This document shows, piece by piece, positions 29,981-52,358 of a stretch of 64,000 bases of DNA. The stretch is taken from positions 3,452,501 through 3,516,500 of the forward strand of contig NZ_CP096670.1 of assembly GCF_023238625.1 (NCBI RefSeq), read 5' to 3'. The notes beneath the pieces are model-generated. The model had not been told where the DNA came from. It saw only the letters and a list, made by a program, of their open reading frames with translations, and searched no databases. Every line of letters starts with the position of its first letter. Positions within the stretch are counted from its first letter, which is position 1. Origin of the DNA: Agarivorans sp. TSD2052. GTDB taxonomy: Bacteria; Pseudomonadota; Gammaproteobacteria; Enterobacterales; Celerinatantimonadaceae. A program made the position numbers and the translations under genes.

Positions 29981-31612
29981 ATGAATGTTAAGAGTTTAAG
30001 ATTTAGGTATTCACTGATATTTGCGGTAAATGCATTACTGCTAATAACAGTATCGCTGATCGGATTTAACGTAGGGAAAAGTACTTCTATCAGTTTAGCT
30101 ACGGTAGAAGAAAACATATTACCAGCATTAGCTTCGGTACTTAATGCTGATCGCGACCTCTATCAAGCCAGGGTTGCCGAACTTGAGGCCATTGAAGCAA
30201 AACCTGAAGAGCGAGCAGCCTTTTTGGCCAGTTATCAAGAGAATGCCCAACAAGCCCAGCAGCGGATGCAGAAATTTAAAGATTTGCTGAGTGCTTATCC
30301 TAGCGCTACCCAAGGTCTCGATAGCTTTGGGCAGCGATTTAGTCAGTGGGAAAAGCACAGTTCAGAAGTGTTTACCCTACTTAAAGCAAACAATACCAAA
30401 CAAGCTATCGAATTAAGTAAAGGGCTCAGCCTCAGTAGTTTCGACAGCGTAAGAGATCTTTACAACACAGCGACTGAAGCCGCTGAGCAATTAGCTAATG
30501 ACATTGAACGAGAGTCTAAAGCCACGGTACATAATCAACTTAATGCACTGAGTATTGTAGCCATTACAGCCGTTATTCTATCTATTTTATTGGCCTATTA
30601 CGGCCCTAAAATATTGGTTGATTCGATTACACGTATTACCACCCGAATAAACGATATTTCACAAGGTGACGGCGACTTAACCCAAAGATTAGAAGTACAA
30701 CGACAAGATGAAATAGGCGAGTTAGCAAACAGCTTCAACCAGTTTGTCGAGTTGCTAGAAGGCCTAATCAACAATGTTAATAAGCTGTCTAATGAACTCA
30801 GTGAGTCGATAATTAACATCAGTCAAAAATCAGAGCAAACCACAGAAGTCAGTAAGGAACAAAACCAATCGGTCGAAATGATCGCCACAGCGGTGACCGA
30901 AATGGCAGCCGCTATTCGCGAGGTGGCTAATAACGCCAACCATGCTGCAGAAGAAGTAAATACTGTGAATAGCCAAACTGAACAAGGGCAAAATGTTACT
31001 AAAAAATCCGTAGAGCACATCACCTTACTTTCAAATACCGTGCAAAATGCCTCAGATGTTGTGGAGAGTTTATCTCAAGATTCTGACCGCATTGCTTCAG
31101 TGCTAGATGTTATTCGAGGCATTGCCGAGCAAACCAATTTACTGGCGCTAAATGCCGCGATTGAAGCAGCCCGAGCAGGCGAGCAAGGCCGTGGTTTTGC
31201 GGTGGTGGCCGACGAAGTAAGAAGTTTGGCCAGTAAAACCCAACAATCAACTGAAGATATTCAGAAAATGATTGAAGCTTTACAAAGTGGAGTAACTCAA
31301 GCTGTTGAAGCAATCAACAAAGGATCTACTGTCGCCGAGGGAACGGTAGACTTAGCGAATCAAACCTTAACGGCACTTAATCAAATCCTTGAATCCACCT
31401 CTAGAGTGAGCGAGGTATCTGCATCTACAGCGACTTCTACTGAAGAACAAAGCCATGTAACCGAAGACATTGACCGTAACTTAAATGAGCTAGCGGACAA
31501 AACTAGAATTAACTTAGAAAACTCTACCGAATCTTTAGCCAACGCCCAAAGAGCTTTAGAGCAGGCTGAATCACTTAACCAACAACTCAGTCGTTTTAAA
31601 GTTTCAGGCTAA
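29981..31612 (+). CDS. methyl-accepting chemotaxis protein
   Basis: About 543 residues from ATG 29981. First membrane helix near residues 10-30, periplasmic four-helix sensor to about 185, second helix, HAMP domain with [11 protein letters not shown], then the signalling coiled coil with tip motif [16 protein letters not shown]. The ligand is unknown. No che genes adjacent. No terminator on its own strand is evident; the following hairpins serve the opposite strand. Confidence 0.92.
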
Positions 31613-31623
31613 ATAAACACTAT

Positions 31624-31652
31624 AAAAAAGCAGCACTGAATCTAGTGCTGCT
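31624..31652 (-). terminator. hairpin/T-tract, unit 1
   Basis: GCAGCAC (31630-31636) and GTGCTGC (31645-31651), 8-nt loop, then T6 on the minus strand. Confidence 0.7.
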
Positions 31653-31735
31653 ACAGTCTAATAAAATCCTAGCTTTCTGCTTACGCGGTATTGATGCAAA
31701 GAGAGTACGACTAACCAATGACTCAAAAAAAGCAT

Positions 31736-31766
31736 AAAAAAAAAGCAGCACCAAATCTAGTGCTGC
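31736..31766 (-). terminator. hairpin/T-tract, unit 2
   Basis: GCAGCAC (31745-31751) and GTGCTGC (31760-31766), 8-nt loop, then T9 on the minus strand. Confidence 0.75.
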
Positions 31767-31851
31767 TACAGTCTACTAAAATCCTAGCTTTCTGCTTACG
31801 CGGTATTGAGGCAAAGAGAGTACGACTAACCAATGACTCAAAAAAAAGCAT

Positions 31852-31880
31852 AAAAAAAGCTGCACTAAATCTAGTGCAGC
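31852..31880 (-). terminator. hairpin/T-tract, unit 3 (first met after hutZ)
   Basis: GCTGCAC (31859-31865) and GTGCAGC (31874-31880), 8-nt loop, then T7. It is about 100 nt past the hutZ stop and carries the compensatory base-pair change. Confidence 0.75.
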
Positions 31881-31980
31881 TACAGTCTAATAAGACCCAA
31901 GGTTTCAGCTTACGCTGAGTGTGGAGAGAGTACTTACGTACCAGGGCAGCTAAGCCCCATTGGGTGTAAACCCTGAGCCC

Positions 31981-32493
31981 TTAGGCTCGTTTTTTATGCC
32001 CTTCCTTCAAGTGCACAAAATCTACATCATCAAGCCCCTGAATATCAAAAGCTTGACCAAATCCTTTTACATAGCGACCTTTCACGGGTGATAAAGCAAA
32101 TAAACTAAAGTCGGCTAACTGGCGTAAGTTTCCCACTATTTCGCCATGGCGTTGCTCTAATAAATCCAATACTTGTTCACGAGGTTCACTATCAACTTGC
32201 TTGGCGATAACGTCATAACTTAGCCGCTTTCGCGCATAAATCTGTTTAGTATCAACTTCATCAGCGATCAACATCACAGCGGCCTTTTCGTGAGCACGCA
32301 GGTAATCAGCGTGCTTAGATATATCACTGATTAAAATGTAAAATGCTCCCTGATAACTGACAAAAGGAGAATAAGAACTATGTGGAAAGCCATCTTCCCC
32401 AATAGAAGCAATTAAAATGCTTTGTTGGCTAGCAATAAATTCGGCAATTTCAGGGCCAAGGCGTGATGCTAAACGTTGCTTCTTATCAATCAT
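31981..32493 (-). CDS. hutZ: haem utilisation protein HutZ
   Basis: 170 residues of the split-barrel PNPOx-like fold; opens RLGPEIAEFIASQQSILIAS and contains the C-terminal half GRYVKGFGQAFDI typical of HutZ. HutZ enzymes bind haem and open the ring to release iron in the cytoplasm. The start overlaps hutX by 4 nt (ATGA). Upstream control comes from the Fur-type box at 33.1 kb. Confidence 0.9.
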   Translation of the reverse strand: MIDKKQRLASRLGPEIAEFIASQQSILIASIGEDGFPHSSYSPFVSYQGAFYILISDISKHADYLRAHEKAAVMLIADEVDTKQIYARKRLSYDVIAKQVDSEPREQVLDLLEQRHGEIVGNLRQLADFSLFALSPVKGRYVKGFGQAFDIQGLDDVDFVHLKEGHKKRA

Positions 32494-33008
32494 AACGATG
32501 TGTTCTCTAATTCCGTTAGGGCCATATTCTGTTTCAAAATTTCAAAGCGCTCTACTTGTTTCGGCAACAATACGCGTTTACGGTCCCGCCCTAAATAAAT
32601 TTTAAAAATGGTGTCGCCATTATCATCAAAAAACTGAAAACAGTAGCTTTCTACCCCACGCAAGGGCTTGCTCACTAAAGCAACACTGGCGATATTTTCA
32701 AGTTTAAGGTGACCATGAAGATGGCTTTGCTTATCCATTAGATTGTAATAGCCGTGGCCGGGCTTTCCACATGGAAAGTTGTCTTTTATTTCAAACACCG
32801 AACCAGCAACTTGCACGATGGTCGTCATCGGCCCCCAGCTAGGTAAATCGTACATTAACCACTGTAATTGCTCATGTGGCAACCAACATGCCCAATGTTC
32901 AGGTAAGTGTGCAACGACTTCAGCTTCACTGCACTTAGCTTGTTGAGCTAGCTGAGCCACACTAAGTTCACTGTGTTGCTCAATTACCTCGGCCAGCGAT
33001 AACACCAT
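32490..33008 (-). CDS. hutX: haem carrier HutX
   Basis: 172 residues from ATG 33008 with AGGAG upstream; the TTG one codon earlier is not needed. HutX/HuvX family, with LMDKQSHLHGHLKLENIASVA and a QFFDDNGDTIFKIYLGR segment. It carries haem to HutZ. Divergent from tonB with a shared control region. The radical-SAM partner hutW, usual in Vibrio, is absent here. Confidence 0.9.
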   Translation of the reverse strand: MVLSLAEVIEQHSELSVAQLAQQAKCSEAEVVAHLPEHWACWLPHEQLQWLMYDLPSWGPMTTIVQVAGSVFEIKDNFPCGKPGHGYYNLMDKQSHLHGHLKLENIASVALVSKPLRGVESYCFQFFDDNGDTIFKIYLGRDRKRVLLPKQVERFEILKQNMALTELENTSL

Positions 33009-33111
33009 CAAAATCTCCTATCAATCATTGTTACTCTTTTCGTATCTACCTAAACGCAGCAGTGCGTTGGAGTACTTAACTTGAGATTACCTTAACCGAC
33101 CAAAACACCAA

Positions 33112-33130
33112 ATGCAAATCATTATCATTT
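33112..33130. promoter_or_regulatory. Fur box in the hutX-tonB divergent region
   Basis: ATGCAAATCATTATCATTT matches the Fur 19-mer with core AATCATTATCATT. It lies about 100 nt before hutX and 70 nt before tonB, so iron repression of both units is likely. Confidence 0.7.
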
Positions 33131-33199
33131 GTATTTACAAAGTTTGAATTTACGATTATTCTAAGACCTGTTTTTAGCATTAATGTGTAAGGGTGAAGA

Positions 33200-33970
33200 A
33201 TGAGGAAGCTTAGTTTGGCCGTGCTGATTTCAGCCGCTATTCATGGCTACGTTATATCTAAGCAACCTAAACACGAGGTATTTAGCCCAAGCTCTGGGGG
33301 GCAGGCATCTGCACCAAGTATAGCAGTAATGGCAATCAATACTTCAGTGGCAACGGCTAGCCCTGAGCCCACAGAAATTAAGCCTGAGACGGCTGCTGTT
33401 AAAACAAAATCAGCCACTAAGCCTCGTTCTGAGAAGTTGACTGAAGCGCCAAAAACATTGAAGGAAGAGAACAGTGAAAAGCCAACTGATCAACCAAACA
33501 GCGACTCGCAGCTTGCCCAATCTCAATCGACGCCAACGCAACAAACAGAAAAGGCGCAGCCAGACCCCATTAAGCCTGCAACAAAGCCTGATGATAAGCG
33601 CCAGCCTATCACTGAAGAGCAAGCTGTAAACGCATCAGTAAGCCAACTTGATAGCAAACCTCAATCTGAACAGGGTTTATCGCAAGTTCCTCGCCTGAAT
33701 AGCCAACCAAGATTTTCTCAGCCCCCTGCTGCTCCCATCTACCCGCGTCTAGCGAAAAAGCGAGGCTTAGAAGGAACGGTATTAGTAGAAGTTTGGATTG
33801 ACCAAAAAGGGCAGCAAACCAAGCAGCAAATATCGAGCAGCTCAGGGGTTAAAAGCCTTGATAAAGCCGCGCTCAAAGCAGTGCAAAAATGGCGTTTCAA
33901 AGCACTGATCGTAGAAGGCCAAGCGCAAGCTTCACGCGCGCTTATTCCCATTAAATTTAAACTGAGTTAA
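33200..33970 (+). CDS. tonB: TonB energy-transducing protein
   Basis: 256 residues. N-terminal membrane anchor, a long Pro/Lys/Glu/Gln-rich periplasmic spacer (about 45-175), then the C-terminal TonB domain with YPRLAKKRGLEGTVLVEVWI and SGVKSLDKAALKAVQKWRF. It transmits proton-motive force to outer-membrane haem receptors. First gene of a six-gene operon. Confidence 0.92.
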   Translation: MRKLSLAVLISAAIHGYVISKQPKHEVFSPSSGGQASAPSIAVMAINTSVATASPEPTEIKPETAAVKTKSATKPRSEKLTEAPKTLKEENSEKPTDQPNSDSQLAQSQSTPTQQTEKAQPDPIKPATKPDDKRQPITEEQAVNASVSQLDSKPQSEQGLSQVPRLNSQPRFSQPPAAPIYPRLAKKRGLEGTVLVEVWIDQKGQQTKQQISSSSGVKSLDKAALKAVQKWRFKALIVEGQAQASRALIPIKFKLS

Positions 33971-36052: not shown

Positions 36053-36111
36053 AATAAAGATTACCTCTAGTCTGAGTAAAGCTCATGTTAGTGTTTTAGT
36101 AGGTTATATTG

Positions 36112-37176
36112 ATGTCTCTGTTTTCTCAAAATTCTTCTCCAGGTTCAGCATTTTCAGTTTGGCTGATGCCAGTGGCGTTACTGTTGCTGCTTGCTACCGC
36201 GCTGCTGTCGGTAACTCAAGGACCGATGAGTATCCCGGTAAGCGACGCTTTAGCGGCTTTATTGCCCTTTGAGCTGCACAGTGATGCGCCAGCGCATTAC
36301 CAACTCGTGGTCACCGGTATTCGCTTACCACGTACTTTATTGTGCATTGCCGTAGGCGCTATTTTAGCCATGTGCGGTGCGGTAATGCAGGGCTTGTTTC
36401 GTAACCCCTTAGCCGACCCAGGCATTATTGGTGTATCGAGCGGCAGCGCCGCCGGTGCTGCGATAGCCATTGTGTTATTAAGCATGCTGAACATTCAACT
36501 TCCAGAGCTGATCAATACACTTGCGGTGCCTTTATTTGCTTTTCTTGGTGGCTTCATCACAACCATATTGGTATACCGATTAGGCACGACCCCCAATGGC
36601 ACATCAGTAGTCATGATGCTACTCGCAGGTATTGCCGTTGGCGCTTTGTCAGGCGCAGGCATTGGCCTGTTAAGTTATTTAGCCAATGACCAAATGCTAC
36701 GCGATTTAAGCCTATGGCAAATGGGCTCATTAGCAGGGGCCACTTGGAGCAACATCATTTTGGCTTTTGCCACCTTAGCGGTGCTGTGTGTGGTATTTAT
36801 GCGCAAAGCTAAGGCCTTAAATGCACTATTGCTTGGAGAAGCCGAAGCAGGTCACCTCGGCATTCAAGTTCAGCAATTAAAAAGTCAGCTTATTTTTTTC
36901 ACTGCACTAGGAGTGGGTATTGCCGTATCCGTATCAGGCTTAATTGGCTTTGTGGGTTTAGTGGTCCCCCATTTAGTTCGCATGCTAATGGGCCCAAATC
37001 ACCAGCGGCTGATTCCTTTCAGCGCTCTGCTTGGCGCCGCTTTATTATTGCTAGCTGACATTATTTCCCGTTTGGTTATTAGCCCAGCCGAGCTACCTGT
37101 AGGCATTGTCACTGCGCTAGTTGGCGCGCCGTTTTTCATCTTCTTGCTGCTGCAACAACGCCAACGAATAGCCTAA
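36112..37176 (+). CDS. hutC: haem ABC transporter permease
   Basis: 354 residues from ATG 36112; the TTG one codon earlier is not preferred. BtuC/FecCD family with about ten membrane helices, the block GIRLPRTLLCIAVGAILAMCG and GLIGFVGLVVPHLVR. Pairs with HutD in the inner membrane. Confidence 0.93.
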   Translation: MSLFSQNSSPGSAFSVWLMPVALLLLLATALLSVTQGPMSIPVSDALAALLPFELHSDAPAHYQLVVTGIRLPRTLLCIAVGAILAMCGAVMQGLFRNPLADPGIIGVSSGSAAGAAIAIVLLSMLNIQLPELINTLAVPLFAFLGGFITTILVYRLGTTPNGTSVVMMLLAGIAVGALSGAGIGLLSYLANDQMLRDLSLWQMGSLAGATWSNIILAFATLAVLCVVFMRKAKALNALLLGEAEAGHLGIQVQQLKSQLIFFTALGVGIAVSVSGLIGFVGLVVPHLVRMLMGPNHQRLIPFSALLGAALLLLADIISRLVISPAELPVGIVTALVGAPFFIFLLLQQRQRIA

Positions 37177-47504: not shown

Positions 47505-48620
47505 TTAACTGATGTCTAGCACGCTAAGGTGATTGTCCCATTGCAAAGCTGTTTGCAGGCGTTGTATGGGCTGGGCTTTTTGAATCAACTGTCCTTGGCC
47601 GGTCGACGCCACCCAACCTTTAGCATGGGTGGCCAAGCCGCATACATCATCTACTTGCATCAACTGCGCTAGTTCTCGTTCAGTTTCAGACCAAACCGCC
47701 AGTTTACCGCCACGGGGCGAACTGGCGAGTAACGTGCCATCTACACATTCAATGCTTCCAATATAGTGATTAAACAGAGGCCAATAATCAGCATCGGCAT
47801 CGAGAGCCATGCAAGGCTCCATCGCATGTTGAGAATAGACAAGAGAGCTAACTTCACGCTGAGGGTTTTGCCCCTGACACGCCAACCACACCGTATCACT
47901 ATGTGTTGAGTAACAGAGGTGGCGAATGCTGAGTTGGTTATCCGGCAACTCTCTGGTTAATAAAGCTTGGCCCGTTTCGCTATCCAAATAAACCAAGGCT
48001 GGGCGCATCGTTTCTAGGTTTAGCTTTTCCCTTCCTTGAGTATGGATCCCCCCAACGGCAACGACCAAGCGCTGCTTTGGCAACATCAATAACTGATGCG
48101 GTCCCAAACCTGCTATCGGCCAACGCTGGCTAAGCGACCACCGCTCGGCTTGCTGTTGATACACCAACACCGCCCCTTGGCTGGTATCACTGTCACCAGC
48201 CGTGACATACAACTTACTGGCATCATCAGAAAAACAAGCATGCCCGTAAAAATGCATATTGGCGGGTGGAGTAATATTGCCTAATAGTTGCCCGGTTCGC
48301 GGCTCAAACAGCACAATATAATGACCAGGTCTTCGCCCAACACAGGCCGCGAGGCCGTGGTCTTTTTTTGCCAAAGCCACATGATGACCGCGGGCCGGTA
48401 AAGCCAATTGGTAAGGTAATTCGCCATTGCTAAACATCGCACTAAGCTGGTATTTATCCTGCTGTTTAGTGCAGCCAAGTAACAAATAGTTATTAGCTCT
48501 AGCGCTATCATTGCGCTTAAGAAGTGCATGAGCAACCGCCGGTGCACTAAGCAAACTGGCGCCTAGCGATAGCTGCGCCATTCTTTGCAACAATTTACGA
48601 CGGTTCAACTCAGTCGCCAT
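47505..48620 (-). CDS. DUF1513 Tat-exported beta-propeller-like protein
   Basis: 371 residues with a twin-arginine-type signal (NRRKLLQRMAQLSLG) and repeated WD/YVTN-like strands. DUF1513 proteins recur with imelysin and di-haem genes in iron-regulated operons. Overlaps the previous gene by 11 nt. Role in periplasmic iron handling is inferred. Confidence 0.88.
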   Translation of the reverse strand: MATELNRRKLLQRMAQLSLGASLLSAPAVAHALLKRNDSARANNYLLLGCTKQQDKYQLSAMFSNGELPYQLALPARGHHVALAKKDHGLAACVGRRPGHYIVLFEPRTGQLLGNITPPANMHFYGHACFSDDASKLYVTAGDSDTSQGAVLVYQQQAERWSLSQRWPIAGLGPHQLLMLPKQRLVVAVGGIHTQGREKLNLETMRPALVYLDSETGQALLTRELPDNQLSIRHLCYSTHSDTVWLACQGQNPQREVSSLVYSQHAMEPCMALDADADYWPLFNHYIGSIECVDGTLLASSPRGGKLAVWSETERELAQLMQVDDVCGLATHAKGWVASTGQGQLIQKAQPIQRLQTALQWDNHLSVLDIS

Positions 48621-49581
48621 CGTTATTATTAAACCCTAACTCTATCGACAGAGCCTGCGGTACTTGATTTGCAAATAAACGGTCTAACTTGGCCAACATC
48701 GGTTCAGCCTTAGCCCAATCACTCAACTGAGCGTGTTGGTCATTGGGCTCAATAGTGGGCATGGCCTTGCTTAAAAGAGCAAATTGCGCTGCGGTTTGCT
48801 TGGCTAAGTTTGCATCAATACTGGTTAGGTAAATCGCTAGGTACCGCTGGTAACGTCTCGCTAAGCCAGTGAGTTGCTCAGCTAACAGCTGAGCACTGAG
48901 TTTGGCACGCCAAGCCTCTCCTTGATAGGGGCGTAAACGTTGGTGCTTAGCTGAGTAAATTGCCCGCAGCTTGCGCAGCATAATGCTGGTTTGCAGGCGG
49001 TAACTGTTCAGTACATCACTGCTTAACTGTTCTGGGCTAATAGTCGCCAGATCGCTAGGTAGGTTGTTCGCTACTTGCTCTGCCGCCTGCACGTATTGAT
49101 TCACTACATCAGGCAGCAATACGCAACGCTGCTGCTCACTAAGCGCTTCGAACAATAGAAACTCTTGGCTACGTAAATTGCTATGAGTACTGCTTAAAGG
49201 CTGCTGTCCGGCTAACGCCGCTTTAACTTTACGCCCAGTAGTATCTTTTTTGTCAGGCCAGTAACTTAAGGCCCAGTTCAATTTTAAATCAACCAAAGGG
49301 CCAAGTGCTGAAGCTTGTAGCGGCAGATACGCAAGATAATTTTGTCTCCACAAGCTTTGGCTTATTAGTAAGCCATCATCACTTGGTTTGGCACAGTAAG
49401 CCGTCACATGTTGTTGGTAGGCACGCGCTTCTGATACTAAGTATGCACTTAAACCCACAATATGTTGCTGCTCTTGCTGTAACCATTGTTGCTGTAAAGT
49501 GACGGTATTAGCAATCGCCGAGCTCAGTCCTACCAGCCCCAAAACACCGAGAGTGATTGCTCGATAAAAACACTTATTCAT
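48610..49581 (-). CDS. imelysin family protein (degenerate motif)
   Basis: 323 residues from ATG 49581; signal peptide ending near AIANT. Imelysin-like helical domain, but where the family GxHxxE motif should be it reads SQEFLLFEAL, so the putative metal site is altered. Third gene of the Fur-type operon, between DUF1111 and DUF1513. Confidence 0.85.
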   Translation of the reverse strand: MNKCFYRAITLGVLGLVGLSSAIANTVTLQQQWLQQEQQHIVGLSAYLVSEARAYQQHVTAYCAKPSDDGLLISQSLWRQNYLAYLPLQASALGPLVDLKLNWALSYWPDKKDTTGRKVKAALAGQQPLSSTHSNLRSQEFLLFEALSEQQRCVLLPDVVNQYVQAAEQVANNLPSDLATISPEQLSSDVLNSYRLQTSIMLRKLRAIYSAKHQRLRPYQGEAWRAKLSAQLLAEQLTGLARRYQRYLAIYLTSIDANLAKQTAAQFALLSKAMPTIEPNDQHAQLSDWAKAEPMLAKLDRLFANQVPQALSIELGFNNNDGD

Positions 49582-49591
49582 AGTTGGCCTT

Positions 49592-51001
49592 TTAGAGTGA
49601 GTTAACAAAAGCCACCAGCGCATCGCGCTGCTGTAAGCTTAAATTGGCAAAGGCTTGTTTAGCAGGTTCGGCTTCGCCACCATGCCAAACAATCGCTTCA
49701 GCCACATTACGCGCACGCCCATCGTGTAATAACTGACTGTGGCCATTGACGGTTTCAGTCAGCCCTACTCCCCATAACGGTGGAGTGCGCCATTGCTGTC
49801 CATTGGCTAAGTATTCGCCCCGACCATCTGCCAGTTCAGGCCCCATATCATGTAGCAACATATCGGTGTAGGGGTAAATAACTTGCTCGCTTAAAGCTGG
49901 CAAGTTTGCTCGCTTGGCTGTAGTAAATCGGCGTTTATGACAGCTATCACAGTTAACTTGGCTAAATAACTGGTCACCTTGTTGCACCAACTCTTTGTCA
50001 TTAATGCGGCGCTTAGGCACGGCTAAATGGCGGGTATAGAACTCTACAAAGCCAAGTAGCTTATCACTCACCTCTGAACCATCAGGGTCGACGCCAGAAG
50101 TCGCCACTTGGCATTCTTTTTGGGCGGCCGTGCAGTGATCGTTCGTGAACATTAAGCTCGTAATACCAATATCACCATTAAAGGCAGCGGCATTTTGTTG
50201 CATTAAATTGGGTTGCCCCGCCTTCCAGCCAAAACGCCCTAAAGTATAAGCTTGCTGCTGTTGGTCCCAGACACGGTTAGCCACACCGCGAATACCATCT
50301 TGGTTAATATCATTAGGATCTGCATTGGCCAATATGTCTTGCTCGCTAATGCTTTCTAACAACCCCAAGCCAATCATTGGCGAAGCAATCCGCGGCGAGA
50401 ACAAGGTATCGGGATGCAGCGGCCCATAGCCTAACTGATCGACAAGCAATTCTGGCTTGCGTAACATAAGTAGGCTGCCGTCACTATAAGTAAAAGCTTG
50501 CTTCGTATAGGCAAAACGCACTCGCGCTTCAGGTGCTACCCCAGGAATAGCTTGGTCTTGTATTTGGCCGCCGTAGGTAGGTTCTGGCACCACACCATTT
50601 TGGGCTTCCAGTAATTTTTGCTCATCTGTTACTGCCGGAATACTGATCCTCACTAACATAGAAACAGCGTTATCGGCCCCCACCGGAGCAGGATGCCCGC
50701 GACCATCTTTGAGGTGGCAATTCTGGCAACCGTTAGTATTAAACAGTGGCCCTAGGCCATCTCTAGCGATCGTCGTCGCGGGGGCAACCACCCAAGGATT
50801 ACGAAAGAAACTATTGCCAGTACTAAAATTCAAACGCCCTTCAAAACTCAAATTAGCCGCAGGCAAAGAAAACGCATTGCGATCAATTCGGATAGTCGTC
50901 GTATCGCCGCCCGGCTTATTGGGGTTGGCAAAGGCGACAATATTGGCGCTTAACGCCGCCACTAAGACCAGCTTACTCATCAACTTATTTTTCAAACTCA
51001 C
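49592..51001 (-). CDS. di-haem (DUF1111) thiol oxidoreductase-like cytochrome
   Basis: About 469 residues from GTG 51001 (GGGAGA upstream); ATG 50980 is an alternative that starts at the signal peptide. Two CxxCH haem motifs, CQNCH and CDSCH. Di-haem cytochrome c peroxidase-like fold, periplasmic. Part of the imelysin operon. Confidence 0.9.
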   Translation of the reverse strand: MSLKNKLMSKLVLVAALSANIVAFANPNKPGGDTTTIRIDRNAFSLPAANLSFEGRLNFSTGNSFFRNPWVVAPATTIARDGLGPLFNTNGCQNCHLKDGRGHPAPVGADNAVSMLVRISIPAVTDEQKLLEAQNGVVPEPTYGGQIQDQAIPGVAPEARVRFAYTKQAFTYSDGSLLMLRKPELLVDQLGYGPLHPDTLFSPRIASPMIGLGLLESISEQDILANADPNDINQDGIRGVANRVWDQQQQAYTLGRFGWKAGQPNLMQQNAAAFNGDIGITSLMFTNDHCTAAQKECQVATSGVDPDGSEVSDKLLGFVEFYTRHLAVPKRRINDKELVQQGDQLFSQVNCDSCHKRRFTTAKRANLPALSEQVIYPYTDMLLHDMGPELADGRGEYLANGQQWRTPPLWGVGLTETVNGHSQLLHDGRARNVAEAIVWHGGEAEPAKQAFANLSLQQRDALVAFVNSL

Positions 51002-51035
51002 TCTCTCCCAAGAATGCTGAAACAAGATCCACGAA

Positions 51036-51053
51036 AGGGAGCAAAAGCTCCCT
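51036..51053 (-). repeat. 7-bp perfect hairpin between imelysin and di-haem genes
   Basis: AGGGAGC-4-GCTCCCT; on the minus strand only TTTC follows, so partial terminator or mRNA-stability element. Confidence 0.5.
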
Positions 51054-51073
51054 ATTATGATATTGATGGCTTT

Positions 51074-52315
51074 TTAGAATTCGTGGTCTGCGGTGTCAGG
51101 GTTTAAATTTTCAATGCCTAATACTTTAGCGCTCGCCTCAATGGCGCGAGTTTGCTCAACCAAGGCTAAGATAGTGCCGTTAATTAAGGCATGGCCATCG
51201 CTATTATTGGCCGCGATAAGCTGATCAAAGTACACCCCATTTTGTTCAGCACTCGCCACTAACTTGGCCGTTTCGGACATCGACAGCTCAAACATCATTT
51301 TGTTGTTTTTAGCAATTGCCGGATCCTTTTGTTTGACCAAATCATGCAAGCTAGGGCCGTTTAGCATTGAGCCATTTAAGCGCTTAAACTCACCGAAATA
51401 GACATTGCTAATACCACGGTTATTGTAATAGTGAGAGTTATGGGTGTTGTCACTGAAACAATCATGCTCATCTTCAGTAGAGTTGGCTTCTAATGCCACC
51501 TTCATACGCTCGCCAGCTAACTCACCCAGAGATAAACTCCCCATACCAAACATCACACGGCGTAAGGCTTGCTCGCTCGGCTCTGCCAGCAATTGCTGCT
51601 GATAATCACCACCGTTTGCCCATTGCTGACTCATCCATGCTAAGTCATCAACCAATAATTGGGTAACCGCAGCTAGGTAGGCGGCCCGTCGATCACAATT
51701 ACCGTTGGTACATGCGCTGCCAGAGGCATAATCGGTATAAGCTCGCTCACCCGCGCCAGCATCAGAGCCATGTAAATCTTGTCCCCATAGTAAAAACTCT
51801 ACCGCATGATAACCGGTTGCTACATTGGCTTCAGAACCGGCAAGCTCATTTAATGAGGCGAGTAATTCGGGGTTAATAACACTTAAATCAAGTGTGTTTT
51901 CGCCCACTTGCACATGGGTATTAGCCACAATATTGGCGGTTGCGCCAGGATTACCCAGCTCATACTGGTAATCGGCAGCCACGTAGTCGATGAGGCCCTC
52001 ATCTAATGGCCAGGCATTAAGTTGCCCTTCCCAATCATCAACAATAGGGTTACCAAAACGGAACACTTCACTTTGCTGGTAAAAGCGTCGCGCTTCTTTC
52101 CAAGCAGCCTTGGCAGCCGCTAAGTGTTGCGCTGAGGGAGCAGATATTAGTTGCTGGCTTGCGTTTTGTAAGCTAACAGCGCTGCTGTGCGAGTCGCTAA
52201 ACACGGCATGAGCTAACTCAGCATAATGAGCGACAACTTGATTTTGTTTTACATCTGCGTAGGCAATATTTGCCAATAATAACGTCGAGCTTAATACCAC
52301 TTTAATCAGGCGCAT
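51074..52315 (-). CDS. imelysin (IrpA-type) iron-regulated protein
   Basis: 413 residues from ATG 52315 with AAGGAAG upstream; a 13-residue longer frame would overlap the Fur-type box. Signal peptide, then imelysin domain with intact GYHAVEFLLWG (GxHxxE). Operon leader under a Fur-type site. The family is implicated in iron uptake; the motif suggests metal binding. Confidence 0.9.
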   Translation of the reverse strand: MRLIKVVLSSTLLLANIAYADVKQNQVVAHYAELAHAVFSDSHSSAVSLQNASQQLISAPSAQHLAAAKAAWKEARRFYQQSEVFRFGNPIVDDWEGQLNAWPLDEGLIDYVAADYQYELGNPGATANIVANTHVQVGENTLDLSVINPELLASLNELAGSEANVATGYHAVEFLLWGQDLHGSDAGAGERAYTDYASGSACTNGNCDRRAAYLAAVTQLLVDDLAWMSQQWANGGDYQQQLLAEPSEQALRRVMFGMGSLSLGELAGERMKVALEANSTEDEHDCFSDNTHNSHYYNNRGISNVYFGEFKRLNGSMLNGPSLHDLVKQKDPAIAKNNKMMFELSMSETAKLVASAEQNGVYFDQLIAANNSDGHALINGTILALVEQTRAIEASAKVLGIENLNPDTADHEF

Positions 52316-52336
52316 TGTCTTCCTTAAATTTACGCT

Positions 52337-52358
52337 AATGAGAATACCTATCATTATC
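52337..52358 (-). promoter_or_regulatory. Fur box upstream of imelysin operon
   Basis: Minus-strand GATAATGATAGGTATTCTCA resembles the Fur consensus (GATAATGATAATCATTATC) and lies 20-40 nt before the imelysin start. Confidence 0.65.

Follow-up and report, generated by a model that had tools for sequence, protein, structure and literature searches.

RyhB follows this regulatory logic: a Fur-linked RNA pairs with the ribosome-binding site of sodB. Two further systems are close to the locus described here. BrrF (ncS63) of Burkholderia cenocepacia is apparently cut from the 3' end of the hemP mRNA and is Fur-controlled via hemP; it is reported to have no Fur box of its own and no sequence similarity to known Fur-regulated sRNAs, to occur in one order only, and to have predicted targets that include sdhC and sodB as well as detected, iron-regulated transcripts that end before the predicted terminator (PMC7377471). 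PrrF1 and PrrF2 of Pseudomonas aeruginosa are iron sRNAs arranged in tandem, and read-through of the first terminator creates the longer, haem-linked PrrH (PMC4211561).

The locus lies in a stretch of 64,000 nucleotides from Agarivorans sp. TSD2052 (the window) and contains three tandem units, A, B, and C, behind the haem utilisation gene hutZ. Judged by its sequence, unit A is very probably a small RNA gene. It is best read as an iron-sparing sRNA that resembles RyhB and BrrF in its logic and belongs to a new sequence family, a proposal that as a whole appears fairly probable. Herein, new refers to the sequence family; the functional kind, an iron-sparing sRNA, is already known. With RyhB, unit A shares the proposed action of a Fur-linked RNA on the sodB ribosome-binding site, whereas its core is another sequence, unrelated to that of RyhB. 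Like BrrF, unit A lies 3' of a haem gene linked to a Fur-like site while no Fur-like site adjoins it, has sodB and sdhC as predicted targets, shows no match to known iron sRNAs, and is found in one order only. Unlike BrrF, it has another sequence and another host, follows hutZ instead of hemP, appears to run into its terminator, and is known here from sequence alone. The tandem duplicates resemble the PrrF arrangement, and a read-through RNA is predicted to be possible from the A-B-C layout as well; however, there are three units compared with two in PrrF, and the bodies of B and C are much changed and have no recognised promoter. Among the papers listed for Agarivorans sRNAs, for RyhB/hutZ, and for UTR-derived and iron-responsive sRNAs, no title or opening of an abstract mentions the unit A RNA.

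Known families do not account for the locus in the searches made. The RyhB model (RF00057) yields no match in the window at its gathering score and is absent from the 10 matches obtained at E 10 for positions 31600-32000, as are the models of PrrF and NrrF, which we take to be RF00444 and RF01416. Above the cut-off, RyhB occurs in none of the 12 genomes of the family, compared with 9 of the 60 genomes searched, with the stricter filters applied for that many genomes. Two 25-bit RyhB look-alikes (G001 and G003) were rejected, being overlapped by higher-scoring Trp-leader-like matches that are themselves under the cut-off, and Rfam gave nothing credible, its mir-15 match (E 0.009) being far under the gathering score. 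If the proposal is right, iron-sparing sRNAs have had a further independent origin, which lies 3' of a haem gene as in the case of BrrF and in a marine lineage where RyhB was not detected.

Layout of the locus

The units are named in the order met by transcription coming from hutZ. The three direct copies start at 31611, 31726, and 31840, with the units on the minus strand; the spacing of 115 and 114 nt and the terminal hairpin with T tract of each unit, described before in a sequence-only reading of the DNA, are confirmed by copy alignment and a terminator scan. The array is bounded by hutZ (31981-32493, minus strand; TIGR04110 with 190.6 bits, under its cut-off of 225) and by a convergent chemotaxis-receptor gene ending at 31612; on the far side of hutZ follows hutX (32490-33011, minus strand; TIGR04108 with 173.4 bits, cut-off 110). 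Unit A (31852-31943, minus strand), delimited by BLAST, the model R1 introduced below, and the centroid fold, covers some 90 nt, counted from its first hairpin through the T tract, and lies about 40 nt downstream of hutZ on the same strand. Unit B (31739-31828, minus strand) is a diverged tandem duplicate and unit C (31624-31713, minus strand) a near-copy of unit B, both delimited by copy comparison and fold. Over the 115-nt register, identity to C, the first copy, is 92% for B and 63% for A. A body assumed earlier to be common to all units is shared only by B and C, which are nearly alike with nine mismatches in 115; that of A is different, and it is the A body that relatives conserve.

Terminator-like hairpins occur on the minus strand at 31881-31858 in unit A (31852-31881 with the T tract), 31767-31744 in unit B, and 31652-31629 in unit C. 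In the scan of 31400-33300, both strands yield five terminators in total versus 1.6 (sd 1.3) in shuffles. The stem consists of AGCTGCAC/GTGCAGCT in unit A and of AGCAGCAC/GTGCTGCT in units B and C, meaning that one stem pair is T:A in A and A:T in B and C. The compensatory change noticed before is therefore real, but the third unit is not the one that changed: according to the relatives, A carries the ancestral pair, and B and C share the derived one. As a sign of selection on RNA structure, the swap says little about function by itself because it sits within the terminator stem. The T tracts comprise 7 T in A, 9 in B, and 6 in C, as well as 7 in five other Agarivorans (G001-G005) and 8 in the outer genera G007 and G011; neither of the two copies in G006 is followed by a T tract. 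Hfq-dependent sRNAs are characterised by a terminator followed by at least seven T (PMC5558911), a length present in units A and B and not in C. On the plus strand, a terminator at 31974-31989 reaches into the end of hutZ; transcription of the chemotaxis-receptor gene may therefore continue to this point, antisense to all three units.

Sigma-70–type promoters were searched in 31400-33300, where seven sites are found and 3.8 expected; no minus-strand match lies inside units A, B, or C. The nearest one on this strand (32048-32019) is located within hutZ, upstream of unit A, and its -10 hexamer reads TAGATT here and TCGATT in the other six Agarivorans. A Fur-box–like site, CCAAATGCAAATCATTATCATTTGTATTTA, is situated between hutX and tonB (33108-33137) and agrees at 14 of 19 positions with GATAATGATAATCATTATC, which we take to be the Fur consensus. 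Scores of at least 14/19 in either orientation are reached at 7 of 63982 positions of the window, and all seven Agarivorans exhibit a site upstream of hutX at 14/19. No Fur-like site adjoins unit A, the best score there being 9/19. The site at 33108-33137 is proposed to be the control point of both hutXZ and the RNA. Elsewhere in the window, another Fur-like site (14/19) near 52334 stands at the head of an operon-like run on the minus strand (47505-52354) that encodes an imelysin, a di-haem oxidoreductase, a second imelysin-like protein, and a DUF1513 protein.

Fold of unit A and pairing with predicted targets

The centroid fold of unit A comprises four hairpins. Going from 5' to 3' on the minus strand, these are hairpin 0 (31930-31941; GUAC-GUAA-GUAC, with a GNRA loop), hairpin 1 (31906-31917; CAGC-GUAA-GCUG), hairpin 2 (31885-31896; GUCU..AGAC), and the terminator, the first three resting on the comparison of relatives and the fold. 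Between hairpins 0 and 1 lies the exposed core UCUCUCCACACU (31918-31929, minus strand), which is proposed as the seed from its place inside the most conserved stretch and its unpaired probability. Six homologues (G003, G004, G005, G006a, G007, and G011) were folded together with unit A, and the centroid shape common to A and five of them consists of GUAC-GNRA-GUAC, the open core, CAGC-GNRA-GCUG, a small GUC/GAC hairpin, and the terminator; the fold of G011 deviates at the first and third hairpins. The loop of hairpin 0 is GAAA in Alginatibacterium, and this hairpin is not formed in Aliagarivorans. In hairpin 1, the loop is GUAA, GAAA, or GCAA across Agarivorans, so the GNRA type is kept. When A, G003, G004, and G005 are folded for minimum energy, three core bases are also paired to the linker. 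The mean unpaired probability of the 12 nt starting from CUCUCU amounts to 0.72 in A and to 0.74-0.90 in the six relatives, with 0.44 in B and 0.40 in C, and the folding-energy z-scores against shuffles are -2.98 for A, -0.78 for B, and -0.70 for C (86-nt piece without the complete first hairpin). Of 33 predicted pairs, two are changed on both sides yet still paired within Agarivorans, a genus too uniform for more.

As classic targets of RyhB, sodB (PF02777), sdhC (PF01127), and ferritins (PF00210) were picked beforehand and compared with 394 control start regions, drawn from the window and from another 400 kb of this genome. For sodB, with jointly optimised sites and the opening cost of both RNAs included, the controls that are as good number 1, 1, 1, 1, 1, 2, and 4 of 394 in the seven Agarivorans; as roughly one gene in ten is represented among the controls, the whole genome may hold some 10-40 further genes with pairing equal to that of sodB. 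With accessibility included, the corresponding counts are 0 of 394 in G011 and 9 of 394 in G007, compared with 57 and 51 in G008 and G010, two relatives without the RNA. Over all nine RNA-bearing genomes, this target prediction, a kind of check suggested before, leaves 0-9 of 394 controls as good as sodB. By duplex energy alone, sodB reaches -12.6 to -15.3 kcal/mol in these nine genomes, where 12-43 of 394 controls and 12-49 of 500 dinucleotide-shuffled cores are as good; the orthologues in G008 and G010 reach -8.6 kcal/mol (157 of 394 controls as good), and the second sod genes -12.4 kcal/mol in G010 (47 controls) and -5.9 kcal/mol in G008 (290 controls). A version with fixed-site accessibility retains the split between sodB and sdhC and ranks sodB of G008 and G010 at 13 and 12 of 394, so that whether relatives without the RNA stand apart is a matter of the method used. 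G009 is without the RNA, yet its sodB site is kept.

The opposite profile is exhibited by sdhC. Its duplex of -20.1 to -20.9 kcal/mol beats all 394 controls in all seven Agarivorans and is reached by 1-5 of 500 mononucleotide- and 3-10 of 500 dinucleotide-shuffled cores. With predicted structure taken into account, however, the controls that do as well rise to 151-212 of 394 in Agarivorans; G011 has 36 such controls and G007 has 48. In Aliagarivorans (G011), the sdhC duplex (-16.1 kcal/mol) is matched by 10 of 394 controls but by 206 of 500 dinucleotide shuffles. Because sodB is strong with accessibility and sdhC drops back when structure is considered, these models make sodB a good candidate target of unit A and leave sdhC an open candidate. 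In Alginatibacterium, sdhC was discarded as a candidate (-8.9 kcal/mol; 161 of 394 controls as good). The start regions of ferritins and bacterioferritins reveal no consistent pairing across species (21 loci, duplex energy only).

Of the 394 start regions sampled, that of the di-haem oxidoreductase forms the strongest duplex with the core; the true start of this gene probably lies further downstream, and it was dropped as a conserved target since only G005 among the relatives matched its piece at E 1e-6. An exploratory lead is petB (cytochrome b; L195, 13067-14278), whose start region gives core duplexes of -12.7 to -17.0 kcal/mol in eight of nine relatives, one of which (G009) is without the RNA.

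Unit A would probably act as an iron-sparing regulator of sodB and perhaps of other iron enzymes. A real small RNA with main targets other than iron enzymes, for which sodB is just one of many GGAG-type ribosome-binding sites, is rather unlikely, though several results suit it. The core holds CUCUCUCC, which is complementary to Shine-Dalgarno sequences, and there is no genome-wide surplus of long complements: 15-nt core complements with at most two mismatches occur 31 times outside the RNA versus 33 times for the reversed control, and among 18 of the 31 viewed in context none has a same-strand frame of at least 70 aa starting within 70 nt downstream. The 1-4 of 394 sampled genes that equal sodB, the failure of sdhC once accessibility is counted, and the high fixed-site rank of sodB in relatives without the RNA fit as well. 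Against this, sodB and sdhC had been chosen beforehand and each is best on one of the two measures, site optimisation gives a poorer sodB match in the two relatives that lack the RNA, and unit A resides in a haem/Fur location.

Conservation and genomic context in relatives

By BLAST against 60 genomes, unit A is detected in all six other Agarivorans, 3' of hutZ, with E 9.1e-24 or better, and its core in Alginatibacterium (G007; E 1.7e-8) and Aliagarivorans marinus (G011; E 2.2e-4), which represent two other genera of this family. The body is present in 9 of 12 family genomes. R1, a covariance model of the 40-nt core, matches the nine at E 2.6e-10 or better among 394 genomes sampled from the order, the 12 of the family included; six of the nine (unit A and five of the other eight) were used to build the model, so that only G001, G002, and G004 are independent. 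In the remaining 382 genomes of the order, six have matches, whose E values of 5.9e-4 to 0.04 are at chance level for that number, and no credible match exists in the family genomes G008, G009, and G010. A covariance-model search for further copies, proposed before, thereby found them in eight more family genomes, five of which had built R1. A match in G207 (28.4 bits), adjoining the 5' side of a response-regulator gene, was rejected as it is at chance level for 394 genomes and has no terminator in view. Among the named genomes, the pattern GTACTCTCTCCACACNCAGC is found only in Agarivorans sp. Toyoura001, Alginatibacterium sediminis, and Aliagarivorans marinus; since about two exact matches to its 19 fixed bases are expected by chance (our estimate), the weight rests on all three being in the family and at iron genes. 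In viral contigs, the exact core pattern was not found.

In the two outer genera, the terminators are replaced by GGCAAGC..GCUUGCC (G007) and CGCCCUUG..CAAGGGCG (G011), while the core GUACUCUCUCCACAC and the CAGC..GCUG hairpin are retained. A hairpin kept in relatives that have lost the body had been named as evidence against an sRNA; the reverse is seen here, with the body kept and the hairpin changed. The comparison also bears on a reading of the array as stacked terminators only, placed between hutZ and the convergent chemotaxis gene, with the body as a passive spacer. The three good minus-strand terminators agree with it, as do B and C, which sit between convergent genes and have lost the body structure; yet it is the body and not the hairpin that relatives conserve, and in two genera this body is not beside hutZ and has a different terminator. 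Comparison therefore argues against this reading for unit A, and the reading as an account of the whole is very unlikely; B and C could fit it.

The RNA is located behind hutZ in seven of the nine genomes and divergent from a FecCD-family permease gene in the other two (G007 and G011), where hutZ lies on other contigs. The two permeases are 56 and 58% identical to the permease of the window (36109-37176), which adjoins tonB and a haem-type binding protein; the FecCD-family permease would carry haem. The interval between RNA and permease contains a Fur-like site of 15/19 in G007 and of 12/19 in G011, the latter being at chance level, and the next gene in G011 encodes a Fur-family regulator. That the unit is merely a cis-acting 3'-UTR structure of the hutXZ mRNA, a stability or processing signal without a trans-acting RNA, would suit its place about 40 nt past hutZ in all seven Agarivorans with further predicted hairpins between, but is highly improbable given that, in Alginatibacterium and Aliagarivorans marinus, the core and a permease gene point away from each other, with hutZ on another contig, and given an exposed, near-invariant single-stranded core that suits pairing in trans. 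Two Aliagarivorans genomes (L101 and L102) contain another conserved stretch in which a terminator comes after ACTCAGCGAAAGCTG; this may be a small RNA of a different kind.

Proposed mechanism and the duplicates

For the iron-sparing sRNA, transcription, processing, Hfq binding, iron response, and target repression are proposed here from what the DNA itself shows: the conservation and location of the unit, its predicted structure, the Fur-like sites, and its complementarity to targets relative to controls. The unit A RNA would be made under iron scarcity, either cut from the hutXZ transcript, which Fur would control, much as BrrF apparently is from the hemP mRNA, or transcribed from a promoter of its own of a kind that the scan does not recognise. 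It would end at its own terminator, with a 7-T tract that suits Hfq binding. The exposed CU-rich core between two small hairpins would then pair with the ribosome-binding site of sodB, possibly also with those of sdhC and other iron enzymes, and block translation, sparing iron. In this way, the RNA would fill the job of RyhB in a lineage where no RyhB was detected. Units B and C would be reachable by read-through of terminator A, with the predicted sodB pairing kept.

By the sequence comparison, unit A is the ancestral copy, and B and C are later tandem duplicates of it in one strain. No B- or C-like copies appear elsewhere among the matches listed (whole-array query, 60 genomes, best candidates of each scored). 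In both units, hairpin 0 is lost, hairpin 1 is down to two pairs, and the seed reads GUACUCUCUUUG. Their sodB pairing is moderate by duplex energy (62 of 394 controls as good for B and 32 for C) and strong with accessibility (6 and 2 of 394). Tandem sRNAs next to iron/haem genes had been suggested; comparison supports unit A well, but not all three as working sRNAs, as B and C are found in one genome, have lost hairpins and changed seeds, and have no recognised promoter. B and C may serve as backup terminators, may be copies in decay, or may be sibling RNAs with sodB as their sole remaining target. A possible, though tentative, extension is that the Agarivorans lineage, having lost RyhB or been without it from the start, built a substitute out of the 3' end of its haem operon; after the tandem duplication, the seeds of the sibling RNAs would have drifted toward sodB alone, and read-through of the first terminators would yield a long, haem-responsive RNA like PrrH. 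If right, the locus is a compact case for sRNA copies losing structure and changing seed, as most species have a single gene and two have duplicates. The second such species is represented by G006, where a further copy of the RNA unit lies past an IS110-like transposase gene (L014, 1672-2706; gene named by eye); it carries G006's own terminator changes, which points to a separate duplication.
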